This document shows, piece by piece, positions 4,373-18,826 of a DNA stretch of 37,263 nucleotides. The notes beneath the pieces are model-generated. The model had not been told where the DNA came from and ran no database searches. It saw nothing but the letters and a program-made list of their open reading frames with translations. This stretch comes from a virus. The position numbers were made by a program, and so were the translations under genes. The stretch covers positions 1 through 37,263 of IMG/VR virus record IMGVR_UViG_3300035438_000265; one strand, 5' to 3'. Numbering within the stretch: the first letter of the stretch is position 1; every line of letters begins with the position of its first letter.

Positions 4373-4546
4373 ATGTTATCCATTGAAGAGATTCGTGCCC
4401 GACTTGCCAAGGCTGATATTCCCGAAATCGTCAAGGCCACCGGCCTCTCCTACAATACCGTGAAAGCGATTCGAGATGGCGCTCCCGGTGCTCGATATGA
4501 GACGATCAAGCTGCTCACGGAGTTTTATGAAGGCCGTGCAGCGTGA
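4373..4546 (+). CDS. Cro-like HTH transcriptional regulator (57 aa)
   Basis: Small DNA-binding protein whose helix-turn-helix is about residues 15-37 (DIPEIVKATGLSYNTVKAIR). It is the first gene of the rightward operon. The ATG at 4373 has GGAG 8 bases upstream. A longer in-frame reading from 4277 would run over the promoters and is rejected. Size and position match phage Cro-type repressors that act on their own divergent promoter region. No partner CI gene is found on the other side, so this is probably a one-regulator circuit that turns down early transcription. Confidence 0.78.
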   Translation: MLSIEEIRARLAKADIPEIVKATGLSYNTVKAIRDGAPGARYETIKLLTEFYEGRAA

Positions 4547-5547
4547 CCGCCTACTATAACGAATATGAGCCTTATGCAGTCGAATGGCTGCGAAACCTCA
4601 TCAAGCAAGGATTGATTGCAGATGGAGAAGTTGACGGACGTTCAATTGTCGATGTTCGAGCCGACGATCTTGGCAAATTCACGCAATGCCACTTCTTCGC
4701 CGGGGTCGGCGTCTGGTCCTACGCCCTCCGTCTCGCAGGATGGCCCGACGACCGACCCGTCTGGACTGGCTCCTGCCCTTGTCAGCCCTTCAGCGCCGCC
4801 GGAAAGGGAGCCGGATTTGCCGACGAGCGCCACCTCTGGCCCGAGTTTCACCGGCTCATCTCCGAGTGCCGTCCTCCAGTCGTCTTTGGAGAGCAGGTTG
4901 CGAGCAAGGACGGCCTCGGCTGGCTCGACATTGTATGCGCTGACCTGGAAGCAACGGGCTACGCCGTCGGGGCTGCTGATCTGTGCGCTGCGGGCGTCGG
5001 TGCGCCGCACATCCGACAGCGCCTCTGGTTTGTTGGGATGGCCGACGCCAACGACGCGGGATTGGAAGGATGGGCAGGAGTGCCGGAACGTGCCGGAGAA
5101 TGCGTTGCTGGGGCGCGTAGTGTGGCAAGCGGGCTGGCCGACGCCGACAGTTACGGATGCGGCGCGGGGGATAGAATACGACCCAATGGCCAAGAACATG
5201 ACGCTGAATATGGCAGCGGCGAGGTCGGGCTGGCCGACGCCGAACGCGAGCAATGTGAAGAATGCTTATCAAGACCCGGACAAGGTAATAGCTCGGAAGG
5301 AGGCCGGCCGTCAGTCGAACCTACAGGATTTTGCAGCTATGGCAGGCCCAGCCCGACTAACGGCCACTGGCGAGCTGCTGACTGGCTCCACTGCCGGGAT
5401 GGAAAGTGGAGGCCAGTTGAATCCGGCACATTCCCGCTGGCTCATGGGGCTGCCGCCCGAGTGGGACGACTGCGCGCCTATGGCAATGCGATTGTCCCGC
5501 AAGTCGCGGCAGAAATAATTCAATCCTTCATGGAGTGCCGTCCTTAA
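4543..5547 (+). CDS. DNA cytosine-C5 methyltransferase
   Basis: 334 aa from GTG at 4543, whose GTGA overlaps the stop of the Cro-like gene. Motif I is FAGVG (52-56). Motif IV is GSCPCQPFSAAGK, with C80 the catalytic cysteine. Motif VI is FGEQV (115-119), with Q where most family members have N. Motif VIII is RQRLWFVG (158-165). Motif X is GNAIVPQVA near residue 318. Between VIII and X lies a variable target-recognition region with repeated LADA/MADA segments. It probably methylates phage DNA against host restriction. The +1-shifted frame is also open for about 900 bases and codes for a separate, conserved-looking product. Confidence 0.9.
   Translation: MTAYYNEYEPYAVEWLRNLIKQGLIADGEVDGRSIVDVRADDLGKFTQCHFFAGVGVWSYALRLAGWPDDRPVWTGSCPCQPFSAAGKGAGFADERHLWPEFHRLISECRPPVVFGEQVASKDGLGWLDIVCADLEATGYAVGAADLCAAGVGAPHIRQRLWFVGMADANDAGLEGWAGVPERAGECVAGARSVASGLADADSYGCGAGDRIRPNGQEHDAEYGSGEVGLADAEREQCEECLSRPGQGNSSEGGRPSVEPTGFCSYGRPSPTNGHWRAADWLHCRDGKWRPVESGTFPLAHGAAARVGRLRAYGNAIVPQVAAEIIQSFMECRP
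4622..5518 (+). CDS. Overprinted ORF inside the methyltransferase gene (WPTP-repeat protein)
   Basis: 298 aa from ATG at 4622, or 300 aa from TTG at 4616. It is wholly contained in the methyltransferase gene in a different frame. The product has a Ser/Pro/Thr-rich N-terminal half, then YALTWKQ, ICALRASVRRTSDS, three GWPTPT/GWPTPN segments, and a C-terminus with GGQLNPAHSRWLMGLPPEW. I recall very similar products (LTWK, RRTSDS, GWPTP repeats, LNPAHSRWLMGLPP) recurring beside or inside phage C5-methyltransferases; this is from memory and unverified. The repeats arise where GGCTGGCCGACGCC reads GWPTP in this frame and GLADA in the other. An AAGG lies 5-11 bases upstream of the candidate starts. 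Whether it is translated is unknown. Confidence 0.5.
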   Translation: MEKLTDVQLSMFEPTILANSRNATSSPGSASGPTPSVSQDGPTTDPSGLAPALVSPSAPPEREPDLPTSATSGPSFTGSSPSAVLQSSLESRLRARTASAGSTLYALTWKQRATPSGLLICALRASVRRTSDSASGLLGWPTPTTRDWKDGQECRNVPENALLGRVVWQAGWPTPTVTDAARGIEYDPMAKNMTLNMAAARSGWPTPNASNVKNAYQDPDKVIARKEAGRQSNLQDFAAMAGPARLTATGELLTGSTAGMESGGQLNPAHSRWLMGLPPEWDDCAPMAMRLSRKSRQK

Positions 5548-5548
5548 C

Positions 5549-7879
5549 ATGACCATCATAGCGAGCATCAAGCAATACACCGAACTCGGCTGGTATCTCG
5601 TCCCGATCCCGGCAGGGCAGAAGGGGCCGACATCCTACGGCTGGAACCAGAAGGACAAGGCGCTCACCGGCCAGGGTGCCATCGACTTCTACTCCAAGAA
5701 TCCGACTTGGAATGTCGGCCTCATCCATCAATGGACCGGCACATGCGCGATCGACATCGATCACATGGAATGGACGCGGATTATTTTCGAGGGGCTGGGC
5801 ATTGACCTCGATGCCTTGATGGCGTCAACCGCGCGTATCCGTGGCCGGGAGGGCCGAGGCAAGCTGATCTTCCGCGCCCATCGGGATGACCTCTCCCGCC
5901 ACTCCATCGCGTGGCCTAACAAGGATGGCCGAGGCAATACGACTGTGTTCGAGTTGCGCGGTGGGCCGGTGCAAGATGTCCTGCCGCCTTCGATCCATCC
6001 CGACACGATGCAGCCCTATGCCTGGGAAGGATTGCCATTCGATCAGATTCCGATCCTGCCGCGTCAACTTCAGATCATGTGGGACGAATGGGACAAGATC
6101 AGACCGCAGATGATGGACCTATGCCCGTGGAAGGTGCGGCCTGAGTATCAAGCCCCGGTTCGGGTTCGCGCGCTCAATCCCGGCACATCCGTGATCGACG
6201 CCTATAATGCAGCGCACAATATTGGCGAATTGCTGGTCAAGTATGGCTACAAGCGCACCGCCCCGAATCGGTATCTCAGCCCGAACAGCGGCACCGGCTT
6301 GGCCGGTTGTAATGTGTTCGACAATAACACCGCCTTCAGCCACCACGGCTCCGACCCGTTCGGCAACGAACATGCTTTCGATTGTTTCGAATTATACCTT
6401 CAGTTCGAGCATGGCGGGAACATGAGCCAAGCGGTCAAACAAGCCGCCGCATTCCTCAACATCACGACCGATCCGAGCCATGAGTGGACGCCCGAGGCGA
6501 AGGTTCAGATTGACCACGGGAAGGCAGCAACTCCCGGCGTGCTGCCTTCCAAACGAACTACCAGCGTCACGCCAGACAATCCGCTGGCATCCATCCCGGC
6601 GCACCTGCTTTCGATCCCTGGCGTGCTGCAAGATGTGGTTCGCTACTATGAGACCACCGCCATCAAGACGCAGCCGCAGTTCGCGGTTCAAGCCGCCATT
6701 GCTCTTGGGGCCGTTGCAATGGGGCGGCGATGGACAACCAGCCAGCGCAACTTTAGCAACCTGTACCTGCTCAATATTGGCGAGACTGGTTGCGGCAAGG
6801 AACACGCCAAGACGGTCATAGAGGCCATGCTTGATGCAGCACAGCTAGGGCATCTGCTAGGGCCAGCCGGTTACACCAGCGCCAGTGGCGTCTTCTCGGC
6901 GCTTATCTCCCGGCCTATTCACGTTTCCGTGATCGATGAGTTAGGCCGAACCCTCAAGTCTGCCGCGAATCGCTCGATGCAGCACAAGGCTGATAGCCTC
7001 ACCGCCATCATGGAGTGCTTCGGGCGGCAGGATGGCGTCTTGCGGCCACAAGGATACGCCACCATCGGCCTAACCAAGGAACAGGCAGAGGCATTCGAGA
7101 AGGTCATCAGAAGACCGTCCTTGACGCTCCTAGGCATGTCTACGCCCAGCGAGTTCTATGGGGCCATCTCAGGCGGCGACATCGCGTCTGGCCTCTTGAA
7201 CCGCTTCCTCATCGTCAAGTCTGAGATTGGCGTTCAGATGAGCCAGGAGCGGCGGATCGTGCCGATTGGCGACCGCATCATCGGATGGCTCCAAGAACAG
7301 GCACAGGCGCACTCTGGGGCTGGAAACCTGACCGGCACCAATACCTATGACATGCCGCCCGATCCCGTCGAGGTGCCCTTTACAAGGCCAGCAATGGACA
7401 TCTTGCGGGACTATGAGGCCGAACTGGTCGGAGCGATTAAGAGCGAGGGCGAAACCGGCCTCGAGGCGATGTACAACCGCAGCCGTGAGATCGCCATGCG
7501 GGTCAGCCTGATTGTCGCTAGGTCACTGGGCGAGACCGAGATCGGACCTGAGCCCATGCAGTGGGCGATTGATTATGTCAGGTTCTACAACCGGCGCGCC
7601 ATCGCCATGTTCCGGGACAACATGGCCGAGAGCAGCCATCAGGCGATCTGCAAGGCCGTTATTGCCAAGCTTAGGGCATCCGGTCTCAAGGGGCTGACGG
7701 AATCCGAACTGGGCAACCGCATCTCTGCGTTCGATGCCTTGACGCTCCGAGACCGTGGTCAGGTGATGGACAAGCTGGTTGCAGACTACGGCATCCAATG
7801 CCGCCATACCAACAAGGGACAGCGAGGCAGACCGAGAATGGCGTGGTTCATCCCGGCACCTGACGCCACGGAAGATTGA
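5549..7879 (+). CDS. Bifunctional primase-polymerase / DUF3987-like helicase (replicative primase-helicase)
   Basis: 776 aa. The N-terminus (LGWYLVPIPAGQKGP, then AIDID at residues 67-71) is an archaeo-eukaryotic-type prim-pol domain of the 'bifunctional DNA primase/polymerase' family. The C-terminal half contains a P-loop, NIGETGCGKE (about 411-418), and a Walker B VIDELGR (about 461-466), as in DUF3987/virulence-E-like ATPases. Together they form a single-chain primase-helicase for phage replication. The last ~90 residues look like a winged-helix DNA-binding end (GLTESELGNRISAF, ending RPRMAWF). The ATG lies 1 base after the methyltransferase stop. An intrinsic terminator follows. Confidence 0.88.
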   Translation: MTIIASIKQYTELGWYLVPIPAGQKGPTSYGWNQKDKALTGQGAIDFYSKNPTWNVGLIHQWTGTCAIDIDHMEWTRIIFEGLGIDLDALMASTARIRGREGRGKLIFRAHRDDLSRHSIAWPNKDGRGNTTVFELRGGPVQDVLPPSIHPDTMQPYAWEGLPFDQIPILPRQLQIMWDEWDKIRPQMMDLCPWKVRPEYQAPVRVRALNPGTSVIDAYNAAHNIGELLVKYGYKRTAPNRYLSPNSGTGLAGCNVFDNNTAFSHHGSDPFGNEHAFDCFELYLQFEHGGNMSQAVKQAAAFLNITTDPSHEWTPEAKVQIDHGKAATPGVLPSKRTTSVTPDNPLASIPAHLLSIPGVLQDVVRYYETTAIKTQPQFAVQAAIALGAVAMGRRWTTSQRNFSNLYLLNIGETGCGKEHAKTVIEAMLDAAQLGHLLGPAGYTSASGVFSALISRPIHVSVIDELGRTLKSAANRSMQHKADSLTAIMECFGRQDGVLRPQGYATIGLTKEQAEAFEKVIRRPSLTLLGMSTPSEFYGAISGGDIASGLLNRFLIVKSEIGVQMSQERRIVPIGDRIIGWLQEQAQAHSGAGNLTGTNTYDMPPDPVEVPFTRPAMDILRDYEAELVGAIKSEGETGLEAMYNRSREIAMRVSLIVARSLGETEIGPEPMQWAIDYVRFYNRRAIAMFRDNMAESSHQAICKAVIAKLRASGLKGLTESELGNRISAFDALTLRDRGQVMDKLVADYGIQCRHTNKGQRGRPRMAWFIPAPDATED

Positions 7880-15607: not shown

Positions 15608-16750
15608 ATGCCTAGCCCCGGCCCGACCGAAAACGAAGACGAGTTCATCTCCCGTTGCATGAGCGACGAGGAGGCAATGTCTGATTTTCCCGATGAAGAT
15701 CAGCGTTATGCCGTCTGCATTTCCAAATGGGAAGGCAAGGCCGATGGGTTCTCTCCCAACGAGGCAATGGCACGAGAAGCCACACGCGGCCTTGATTGGC
15801 GTGATGAGTTCAATCGTGGCGGCACCGAGATCGGCGTTGCCCGCGCTCGAGACATCAAGAACCGCCGCAACCTTTCGCTCGATACCGTCAAGCGGATGGT
15901 CTCCTACTTCGCCCGCCATGAGGTGGACAAGCAAGGAGAGGGCTTTTCTCCCGGCGAAGACGGCTATCCGTCCGCTGGCCGCATCGCATGGGCTTTGTGG
16001 GGCGGTGATCCTGGCCGCTCATGGGCCAACGCAATAGTTCGCAGAGAAGAGGGCGACAAGTTCATGTCCGAACCGATCCAGCATAAGAACGTATCCCTCA
16101 CGCTCAAGCGCGAACCGGATCAAGATGGCGTCTTTGAAGGCTATGCCTCCGTCTTCGGCGTTGTCGATCAGGGAATGGATGTTGTCGAACGCGGCGCATT
16201 CCGCAAATCGCTCGGTTCTCGTAAAGTCAAGATGCTCTGGCAGCACGATATGAGCCAGCCCATCGGCGTATGGGATGAAATCTACGAGGACGAACGCGGC
16301 CTGTTTGTCCGTGGCCGTCTTCTCAAGGAAGTAGAAAAGGGCCGCGAGGCAATGGCGCTTCTCCGCGCCGGGGCCATCGATTCCATGTCTATCGGCTATC
16401 GCACAATGGAAGCCATCCCGGAAGGCGATGGCCGTGTTCGCAAGCTGATGGAAGTAGACCTATTCGAGATCAGCCTTGTGACGTTCCCGATGCTGCCGGA
16501 TGCAAAGGTGACGAACGTCAAATCGATCACCACTGAAAGAGATTTCGAGCGTTTCCTGCGCGATGCAGGATACTCCCGCAAAGAGGCCGTGGCTCTCACT
16601 CTCCACGGATTCAAAGCCCTACAGAGACAGCGGGACGCTGGCGATGAAGAGGCCGTAATCGAGGGCGTCGATGCCCTTTTACAGTCACTGTCAAAGCTAA
16701 AGGAATCCCTGCATGTCAGAGGAAATCAAGAAGGCCATCGGCGCGGTTGA
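15608..16750 (+). CDS. Prohead protease (HK97 family) with a 150-residue N-terminal extension
   Basis: 380 aa. Residues about 155-340 are the prohead protease: FEGYASVFGVVD, a catalytic His in WQHD (H213), a catalytic Ser in SMSIGY (259-264), and VDLFEISLVTFPM. Residues 1-150 hold a separate extension with DEFISRCMSD, QRYAVCISKWEG and GYPSAGRIAWALWGGD. I recall these segments from other alphaproteobacterial phage head proteins, function unknown. An internal ATG at 16064 with AGAGGG upstream could give a free protease. The enzyme cleaves the capsid delta domain during maturation. It overlaps the capsid gene by 38 bases. Confidence 0.88.
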   Translation: MPSPGPTENEDEFISRCMSDEEAMSDFPDEDQRYAVCISKWEGKADGFSPNEAMAREATRGLDWRDEFNRGGTEIGVARARDIKNRRNLSLDTVKRMVSYFARHEVDKQGEGFSPGEDGYPSAGRIAWALWGGDPGRSWANAIVRREEGDKFMSEPIQHKNVSLTLKREPDQDGVFEGYASVFGVVDQGMDVVERGAFRKSLGSRKVKMLWQHDMSQPIGVWDEIYEDERGLFVRGRLLKEVEKGREAMALLRAGAIDSMSIGYRTMEAIPEGDGRVRKLMEVDLFEISLVTFPMLPDAKVTNVKSITTERDFERFLRDAGYSRKEAVALTLHGFKALQRQRDAGDEEAVIEGVDALLQSLSKLKESLHVRGNQEGHRRG

Positions 16751-18008
16751 CGCGCTGCACGCCGGATTCGAAGAGTTCAAGAAGGCAAACGACGAACGCC
16801 TTGCCCAGATCGAAAAGAAGGGCAGCGCCGATGTCGTGACCGAGGCCAAGCTTCAGAAGATTGAAGCCGATCTTGAGAAGGCCCAGAAGATCGCTGACGA
16901 GGCCGTTCTGGCTTCCAAGCGTCAGTCCCGCATCGTCACCGACGAGCGTGGCGAAGTGGTCGATCTCGACCGCAAGGCCCAGGAGTGGGCTTCCATGAAT
17001 GCCCGCCGCCGTGGCGCTGTTGCTGGTTCCTTCGGCGCTGCCGACATGGACGGCTACAAGGCCGCGTTCGACACCTTCCTCCGCAAGGGCGAAGAAGTCA
17101 TGGGGCCGGACGAGCGCAAGGCTCTCTCGGTCGGCACCGATCCCGATGGCGGTTACGTGGTCAATCCCGACCTCTCTGGCCGGATCGTGATGAAGGTCTT
17201 CGAGACCAGCCCGATGCGTGCATACGCCTCGATCCAGGTCATCTCTTCTGATGCCCTCGAAGGTCTGTTCGATCTCAACGAAGCCTCTTCGGGCTGGGTT
17301 GGCGAAACGGACAGCCGTCCTGAGACCAACACGCCGCAGCTTGGCAAGTGGCGCATTCCTGCCCACGAACTCTATGCGAAGCCCAAGGCAACGCAGAAGC
17401 TGCTCGATGACGCCTCGATCAACATGGAAGCATGGCTTGCCTCCAAGGTTGCCGAGAAGTTCGCCCGTGACGAAGCCAACGCTTTCGTTGTCGGCAACGG
17501 CGTCAACAAGCCCCGTGGCTTCCTGACCTTCCCGTCTGGCACCACGCTCCCCGGCACCATCGAGCGTTTCGATACCGGTGTGAACGGCGCATTTGCTGCC
17601 GCTCCGAACGGTGGCGATGTTCTCATCAACGCGCTCTATGGCCTCAAGCAGCAGTACCGCGCCAACGCAACCTGGTTCATGAACCGCGCCACGCTCAAGC
17701 TGACGCGCAAGCTCAAGGACTCGGACGGCGCTTATCTGTGGTCTCCCGGCATCGCTGCCGGTCAGCCCGCTTCGCTGCTCGGCTATCCGGTCGCGTCCTT
17801 CGAGGACATGCCCGATCCGGCCACGGACTCGCTCTCCATCGCCGTTGGCGATATGCGCGAAGCCTATCAGATCGTGGATCGTCTCGGCATCCGCACTCTG
17901 CGCGATCCCTATTCTGCCAAGCCCTACGTTGAGTTCTACACCACGAAGCGTGTGGGCGGCGATGTCGTGAACTTCGAGGCTCTCAAGCTGATCGAGTTCA
18001 CTGCCTAA
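16713..18008 (+). CDS. Major capsid protein, HK97 fold, with N-terminal delta domain
   Basis: 431 aa. Residues 1 to about 105 are a charged coiled coil (scaffolding delta domain) expected to be removed by the protease just upstream. The mature part begins around GSFGAADMDGYKAAF and contains KALSVGTDPDGGYVVNP, ASSGWVGETDSRPET, FVVGNGVNKPRGFLT and LGYPVASFEDMP, all standard for HK97-type capsids. AAAGGA precedes the ATG. A 635-codon frame on the opposite strand is a codon-bias shadow. Confidence 0.95.
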   Translation: MSEEIKKAIGAVDALHAGFEEFKKANDERLAQIEKKGSADVVTEAKLQKIEADLEKAQKIADEAVLASKRQSRIVTDERGEVVDLDRKAQEWASMNARRRGAVAGSFGAADMDGYKAAFDTFLRKGEEVMGPDERKALSVGTDPDGGYVVNPDLSGRIVMKVFETSPMRAYASIQVISSDALEGLFDLNEASSGWVGETDSRPETNTPQLGKWRIPAHELYAKPKATQKLLDDASINMEAWLASKVAEKFARDEANAFVVGNGVNKPRGFLTFPSGTTLPGTIERFDTGVNGAFAAAPNGGDVLINALYGLKQQYRANATWFMNRATLKLTRKLKDSDGAYLWSPGIAAGQPASLLGYPVASFEDMPDPATDSLSIAVGDMREAYQIVDRLGIRTLRDPYSAKPYVEFYTTKRVGGDVVNFEALKLIEFTA

Positions 18009-18017
18009 AGCACTAAC

Positions 18018-18043
18018 GCGGGGCGGCAATAACGCCGCTCCGC
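18018..18043 (+). other. Hairpin between capsid and next structural gene
   Basis: Ten-bp stem (18018-18027 with 18034-18043, one G-T pair) around a 6-base loop, 9 bases after the capsid stop. There is no T run. It probably protects the 3' end of capsid mRNA or dampens read-through. Confidence 0.55.
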
Positions 18044-18071
18044 AACCACGCCGATAAGAAGGATTCTTGAG

Positions 18072-18515
18072 ATGCGTGATATGCTTTCTAACAAGCAGGT
18101 TGTCCTGCTTGGCACCGTGACCCTCTCTGGCACCACTGCCGGGGCTACTTCGTGGGTTGACACCCGTGGCTTTGATGCCGTCACTTTGATGCTTGCCACC
18201 GATACCGTGACCGATGCTGGCGCTGCTGCTGGCTTCACATTCACGGCCCAGCACTCCGACACGACCGTTGCTGGTGACGCTGCGGCCATTGTCGCTGCTG
18301 ATTCGGTTAATGGCACGATTGCCCTGTCTGTCACTGCCGATGGCGATGACAACAAGATAATCGGCGGCATCGGCTATAAGGGCAGCAAGCGTTATGTTCG
18401 CATGAACGGCGTTGGCACCACCGGCACCGATGCGACCGTCAAGGTCTACGGCATCCTCAATGTGCCGCACCGCGCTGCCACCACCTTCGTCGGCACCAAC
18501 GTGGCTGCTACGTAA
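18072..18515 (+). CDS. Putative head decoration / structural protein
   Basis: 147 aa, rich in Thr, Ala, Gly and Val in alternating beta-type patterns (LLGTVTLSGTTAGATSW, then GFDAVTLMLATDTVTDAG). It is a soluble beta-protein lying directly after the capsid gene with AAGGATT before the ATG. Size, position and composition suit a head decoration or stabilising protein, but I see no named family. Closed off downstream by a hairpin at 18522-18545. Confidence 0.65.
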   Translation: MRDMLSNKQVVLLGTVTLSGTTAGATSWVDTRGFDAVTLMLATDTVTDAGAAAGFTFTAQHSDTTVAGDAAAIVAADSVNGTIALSVTADGDDNKIIGGIGYKGSKRYVRMNGVGTTGTDATVKVYGILNVPHRAATTFVGTNVAAT

Positions 18516-18521
18516 TCTCGA

Positions 18522-18545
18522 AGGGGCGGTTTCAAAGCCGCCCCT
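18522..18545 (+). terminator. Hairpin, weak terminator candidate
   Basis: AGGGGCGG (18522-18529) pairs with CCGCCCCT (18538-18545) around TTTCAAAG. Only a broken pyrimidine run (ACCTTTCTC) follows, so termination is probably partial. It marks the boundary between the capsid pair and the spike/fibre block. Confidence 0.5.
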
Positions 18546-18574
18546 ACCTTTCTCACTCCAGCCGGAGATAAAAA

Positions 18575-18826
18575 ATGTCTGATCCGTATTCCAATCATAC
18601 AATGGGGCTTGAAAGTCCCGCATATCGGCACTTCTCCATTACGCCAGGAGACTCTGATCTTGCGGTTCGTCCTCGCGCTCTTTATGTCAACGCAGACGAC
18701 AATCTTGTTGTTCGTGATATTGGCGGCGTTGATGTGACATACGCGGTTGTAAAGGGACAAATTCTTCCAATCTGCGCCGTTCAAGTTCGCGCAGCAACCA
18801 CAGCAACCGTCATTGGATGGCATTGA
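18575..18826 (+). CDS. Spike base protein, RCAP_Rcc01079-like
   Basis: 83 aa. The pattern HFSITPGDSDLAVRPRALYV, then DGN-like VVRDIGG, VKGQILPI and VQVRAATTATVIGWH agrees with the small spike-base family first named from the Rhodobacter gene transfer agent region. In gene transfer agents such proteins anchor head spikes. Placement next to the capsid gene supports a head-spike role. GGAGAT precedes the ATG. The stop overlaps the next start (TGATG). Confidence 0.75.
   Translation: MSDPYSNHTMGLESPAYRHFSITPGDSDLAVRPRALYVNADDNLVVRDIGGVDVTYAVVKGQILPICAVQVRAATTATVIGWH

Follow-up and report, generated by a model that had tools for sequence, protein, structure and literature searches.

In phages, the target-recognising domains of multispecific cytosine-5 methyltransferases (C5-MTases) are about 40 residues long, and in M.EcoHK31I the small gene resides inside the large one, in another frame. 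The multispecific phage enzymes M.SPRI, M.phi3TI and M.H2I harbor several such domains in tandem between motifs VIII and IX (cited in PMC8936443 and PMC12707154). M.EcoHK31I (Lee, Kam & Shaw 1995) consists of two polypeptides: according to PMC3404938, the larger carries motifs I-VIII and X, together with the predicted target recognition domain, and the smaller carries motif IX, hence the two-polypeptide kind of C5-MTase has a precedent. M.AquI is a split C5-MTase, its small subunit carrying motifs IX and X (PMC3404938).

The locus described here resides in the window (the whole analysed stretch of 37,263 bases, an IMG/VR virus record) and comprises two frames, alpha, the C5-MTase frame (frame 0), and beta (frame +1), the latter lying wholly inside the alpha gene in the window as well as in the relatives. 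The favoured reading, with a probability of roughly 0.87, is that of a two-subunit C5-MTase encoded by fully overlapping genes, with alpha as the catalytic subunit and beta providing target recognition and motif IX. Such an enzyme would resemble M.EcoHK31I in having two polypeptides, the large one with motifs I-VIII and X and the small one with a putative motif-IX equivalent. Unlike in M.EcoHK31I, the variable region is selected here in the frame of the small subunit and is modular; furthermore, M.EcoHK31I belongs to a restriction-modification system, whereas the immediate neighbours examined here (the HTH regulator, the Sak4-like protein and the primase) include no recognisable endonuclease. 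The PADLOC model PDLC03270, guessed as a route to M.EcoHK31I, yielded ordinary methyltransferases. With M.AquI, the enzyme would share the natural split in the variable region and the two subunits; the full +1 overlap sets it apart, no such overlap being described for M.AquI in PMC3404938. The multispecific phage C5-MTases are single chains encoded in one frame, whereas the modules of the locus described here are arrayed in the other frame and belong to a second protein. We know of no sequence relation between the type I subunits HsdM/HsdS and alpha/beta. The type I enzyme likewise combines a catalytic and an exchangeable specificity subunit, with genes in different frames, but it is an adenine methyltransferase with a gene overlap of 1 nt (PMC3510504).

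Terminase, head, tail, primase and Sak4-like genes were recognised in the window. The methyltransferase gene is located between the ORF of a small HTH regulator and the primase gene (5549-7879). The stop codon of the HTH gene overlaps the GTG start of alpha in the tetranucleotide GTGA (4543-4546), making translational coupling possible. Elsewhere in the window, a 635-codon frame (16716-18623, minus strand) is open antisense to the major head protein gene (16713-18008); it has no PHROG match. The features of the locus are collected in Table 1.

Table 1. Features of the alpha/beta locus (positions in the window).
Feature	Position	Strand	Basis or remark
Small HTH-type regulator ORF, 57 aa	4373..4546	+	phrog_18104, E 1.6e-7
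Alpha: C5-cytosine MTase catalytic polypeptide, 334 aa, GTG start	4543..5547	+	motifs I-VIII and X, without IX
AAGGA Shine-Dalgarno-like site within the alpha gene, 10 nt upstream of ATG 4622	4607..4611	+	ATG+SD survey of relatives
Beta: +1-frame polypeptide, 298 aa from ATG 4622; putative specificity subunit	4622..5518	+	open frame, stop avoidance, start signals, substitutions
Alpha motif I (FFAGVG)	4693..4710	+	sequence and alignment of relatives
Alpha motif IV (PCQ, catalytic Cys)	4777..4785	+	aligned to M.HhaI
Double-constraint zone: alpha codons 103-157 (motifs VI-VIII), about 55 codons; beta helix 80-99 and hairpin 105-127 (LYALTWKQRATP...ALRAS)	4849..5013	+	
Alpha motif VIII (PHIRQR)	5005..5022	+	alignment of relatives
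Beta module 1 (GWPTPTTRDWKDG...), 32 codons	5036..5131	+	also found at other positions in other betas
Beta module 2 (GWPTPTVTDAARG...), 32 codons	5132..5227	+	module survey
Beta module 3 (GWPTPNASNVKNAYQ...)	5228..5344	+	related module comes first in N15
Beta motif-IX-like segment LNPAHSRWLMGLPPEW, C-terminal	5417..5464	+	position and in-frame relatives
Alpha motif X (RAYGNAIVPQVAAEI)	5473..5517	+	alignment of relatives; pLDDT 80-96

Alpha possesses the hallmarks of a C5-MTase, i.e., motifs I, IV (PCQ), VI, VIII and X along with the DNA_methylase fold, and matches PF00145 (E 2.3e-16) and phrog_363. Its residues P79, C80 and Q81 are invariant in 99 relatives, and motif VI reads GEQ, not ENV. 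The initial annotation had called the methyltransferase complete on the strength of these five motifs; all five were found, but motif IX is absent from frame 0, and neither this motif nor the target recognition domain is in the alpha chain. In the AlphaFold model of alpha (99 sequences), residues 1-170 and 313-334 are mostly of high confidence, and residues 171-277 form a low-confidence coil, called disordered. The top PDB matches of the model are M.HhaI (2z6q, E 3.4e-8, 177 aligned columns) and M.HaeIII. Judging from the model, alpha is likely an M.HhaI-like catalytic domain with a disordered middle.

The two long frames that had been noticed over the same stretch were confirmed, the +1 frame being open inside alpha from 4616 to 5518 (300 codons counted from TTG 4616). 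Taken alone, the open frame of the window is mildly unusual and constitutes weak evidence (0 stops versus 2.2 expected, p about 0.035). A comparison of second-frame stops with simulation, suggested in the initial annotation, was made on 107 non-redundant relatives, and frequent stops were not seen: the +1 frame contains 21 of them versus 376 expected from synonymous-codon shuffles. There are zero +1 stops in 91 of the 107 genes (4.3 expected); the other four frames are about at expectation (1333/1178, 425/458, 637/604 and 811/677). In all 80 viral loci recruited by the alpha protein only, the +1 frame is open for 260-389 codons. For leucine ahead of an A-starting codon, CTG is used in 1 of 182 cases inside the overlap versus 57 of 134 in the first codons, preceding the beta start. 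With the beta codons shuffled, alpha-frame stops in the module region amount to 0 versus 309, a difference that is partly ascertained, since the genes were required to have an intact alpha. As judged by stop avoidance, both frames are probably translated throughout.

A long second frame could be a by-product of GC content and codon bias, in line with the p value obtained for the window alone and with the length of another frame, on the minus strand (203 aa). Still, the 18-fold stop depletion is confined to the +1 frame across the relatives and holds also at GC <0.45 (+1 stops 1/70 in distant C5-MTase sets), whereas 18 canonical C5-MTases, a control set of mostly lower GC, show no depletion (330 stops versus 327 expected). 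The start signals and the substitutions at alpha codon position 1 in the module region, both considered below, also speak against this explanation. Chance and GC bias are ruled out by the shuffles, the other frames, the low-GC sets and the canonical controls, and the probability left to them is practically negligible. Beta is confirmed as a real gene.

As the start of beta, ATG 4622 is better than TTG 4616. A +1-frame ATG is present near the expected start in 105 of 107 relatives versus 57 expected, and an ATG combined with a Shine-Dalgarno site (a match of at least 4 nt, 5-11 nt from the ATG) in 89 of 107 versus 17 expected, with a maximum of 27 in 200 shuffles; beta thus has start signals of its own. 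The start shifts among a few fixed places (codons -24, -20, -14 and -10 relative to motif I), a pattern suggesting that a start has evolved anew several times and is not a shadow of alpha. These signals also bear on programmed ribosomal frameshifting, which would join alpha motifs I-VIII to the +1 modules and motif IX, leaving no separate beta. Frameshifting would accord with the change of the constrained frame near the boundary between motif VIII and the modules, as well as with the relatives L504/L508 and L397, which encode such a join in one frame. However, the +1 frame already stays open a long way ahead of any shift point (3 stops versus 85 expected from motif I on, ahead of the modules; 0 versus 118 within them), it has the ATG and the Shine-Dalgarno site near its 5' end, and alpha is also kept open across the modules, with motif X residing in alpha. 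Frameshifting was rejected because of the frame open well upstream and the start signals, and is regarded as extremely unlikely.

Owing to the offset of the two frames, the third position of an alpha codon coincides with the second position of a beta codon, and the first position of an alpha codon with the third of a beta codon. Counted over 23 disjoint close pairs, substitutions at positions 1/2/3 of the alpha codons amount to 159/99/422 over motifs I-VIII, where alpha is selected, to 297/109/80 in the module region, where beta is selected, and to 108/67/146 at the C-terminus, where the pattern is mixed. Position-3 rates, about 0.19 per codon ahead of beta, drop to 0.06-0.13 within the overlap. 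Stop avoidance, start sites and the codon-position analysis thus all support the earlier suggestion of selection on both frames. The excess conservation at synonymous sites that it implied was located at alpha codons 103-157, where the same-codon identity for conserved alpha residues is 0.62-0.87 versus 0.34-0.42 expected; at codons 1-34, it equals the expectation. Hence, the former zone is fixed by both proteins. In the repeats, alpha tolerates nearly any stop-free sequence. Thus, the view that one repeat serves two proteins stood as regards beta, which is selected there, and not as regards alpha; genuine double coding is located further upstream, in the zone around LTWK and motifs VI-VIII.

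The GGCTGGCCGACGCC block occurs at 5036 (with one mismatch), 5132 and 5228, at two intervals of exactly 96 nt; its translation is GWPTP in the beta frame and GMADA/GLADA in the alpha frame. The recurrence of WPTP products with phage methyltransferases, mentioned in the initial annotation, was borne out in the relatives. Betas carry 0-5 WPTP-type modules with a median length of 36 residues (middle half 32-40), although the hairpin contributed a few false entries to the survey. Where betas share modules of at least 60% identity, these differ in position or count in 432 pairs and agree in 88, and no module is repeated within a single beta. In several gene pairs, identity is at least 96% over motifs I-VIII and 93% or more at the C-terminus, yet the modules are unalike. 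The modules are, therefore, shuffled between relatives. By analogy with the multispecific phage methyltransferases, this pattern may be what exchangeable recognition units would look like. Between the window (4543-5547) and L001, the module region is identical and motifs I-VIII differ at 28 sites, suggesting recombination.

The beta segment LNPAHSRWLMGLPPEW sits at the place of motif IX, just ahead of alpha motif X. In Gordonia SchottB gp4 and Mycobacterium KyMonks1A gp92, LSPVFVEWMMGLPRGW (or RVSAEFYEWLMGLPRGW) is found in frame 0, directly before motif X; in L504/L508, motifs I-VIII share one frame with the PTP modules and motif IX, and motif X lies in a different one. The Gordonia SchottB locus (L295, 1009-2079) displays a third arrangement, the PTP modules being open in +1 and the motif IX equivalent residing in frame 0. 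When beta was compared profile to profile (Hhalign) with 18 canonical C5-MTases, no match to motif IX emerged; LNPAHSRWLMGLPPEW is, hence, a putative motif-IX equivalent, supported by its position and by the in-frame relatives and unproven by profiles.

Beta matches phrog_1008 and phrog_31772, each labelled “DNA methyltransferase”; it has no match in Pfam, NCBIfam or PADLOC, and a PDB sequence search with its profile gave none. Its AlphaFold model is confident only at residues 80-127 (pLDDT about 74-89), a helix and a hairpin with LTWK and ALRAS, and a fold search with this model, of low confidence outside these residues, returned no match. The lack of a recognisable domain, as well as the often accessory nature of overlapping phage genes, would suit a protein overprinted de novo that has a separate function (e.g., anti-restriction) and is not a methyltransferase subunit. 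Nevertheless, alpha lacks motif IX and beta has a putative equivalent just where it would be expected, relatives encode this segment in frame with motif X or with motifs I-VIII, and beta was seen only overlapped with this methyltransferase in the loci examined. A separate job of beta is, consequently, deemed highly unlikely. Of the two functions initially proposed for it, anti-restriction is left without support by the Pfam, NCBIfam and PADLOC searches, and that of a methyltransferase partner protein is the best supported.

Hundreds of genes in phages and prophages show this arrangement, most of them annotated as one protein. Homologues of the beta frame were detected in 222 phage and 15 plasmid records, as well as in 80 bacterial genome loci, all of the latter with the same +1 relation. 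Among 5,426 E. coli genomes, 63 carry related genes, as do PMG1, BASEL Bas74 and Bas76 and a Microcystis phage; N15 gp58 is a further related gene. Distant C5-MTases from phages of Acinetobacter, Paenibacillus, Bacteroides and Microcystis retain the same +1 frame. In three distant groups gathered with Acinetobacter ABMM1, Paenibacillus Honeybear and Bacteroides BKO1-TP3 as queries, the +1 stops are 1/189, 14/267 and 11/182, and a motif-IX-like segment is present in +1 in 58/62, 46/54 and 34/36 genes, respectively.

Public annotation of the beta frame is inconsistent: it is labelled DNA methyltransferase, Mte8-like or hypothetical (phrog_1008, phrog_31772; L158, L165, L168, L169), “Mte8-like” being its name in K1 phages, for which no definition was traced. 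Beta is annotated sometimes in place of alpha and sometimes beside it (Honeybear_55/56, PhiXhv-5, PhiXhv-28); in the ETEC H10407 record, alpha alone is annotated. Genome copies in decay comprise those with alpha broken and beta intact (L188, L201) and those with both broken (L208, L236). In Pseudomonas phage PACT201 (L160), both frames of the locus are disrupted, and its annotation consists of several short genes.

In the proposed two-subunit enzyme, alpha would constitute the SAM-binding and catalytic domain with motifs I-VIII and X, its stretch overlapping the repeats being a disordered, unconstrained linker. Beta would initiate at its own ATG and Shine-Dalgarno site inside alpha; following a disordered N-terminus, its conserved helix-hairpin (LTWK...ALRAS) probably docks on alpha, the tandem array of about 36-residue WPTP modules would serve as the target-recognition region, and beta would also supply the motif-IX equivalent. 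Together, alpha and beta would make up a complete enzyme marking phage DNA, presumably against host restriction. Translation, alpha:beta assembly, methylation and the recognition of one target per module are what we infer from these computational data. The odds lean slightly towards a broader proposition, namely a very widespread class of phage C5-MTases with the whole specificity subunit in the +1 frame of the catalytic gene, where each WPTP module is a target-recognition unit, recombination of modules rewrites the targets with the change being tolerated in the other frame, and the overlap is held across phages of several bacterial phyla.

In the literature searched, no paper describing the overlap in phages was found. 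The variable region under the selection of beta, its makeup as an array of modules of about 36 residues that are shuffled between relatives, and the very wide spread were not found there either and seem to be new. If the above is true, many phage and prophage genes annotated as “DNA cytosine methyltransferase” encode half an enzyme, the specificity half being unannotated or called as a rival gene, and one frame cloned alone would yield an inactive protein and wrong conclusions. Few overlapping gene pairs of phages would then be as widespread or as old as this one, which is testable in the lab phages N15, BASEL Bas74 and Bas76 and would lend itself to studies of the sharing of recombining DNA by two selected frames.
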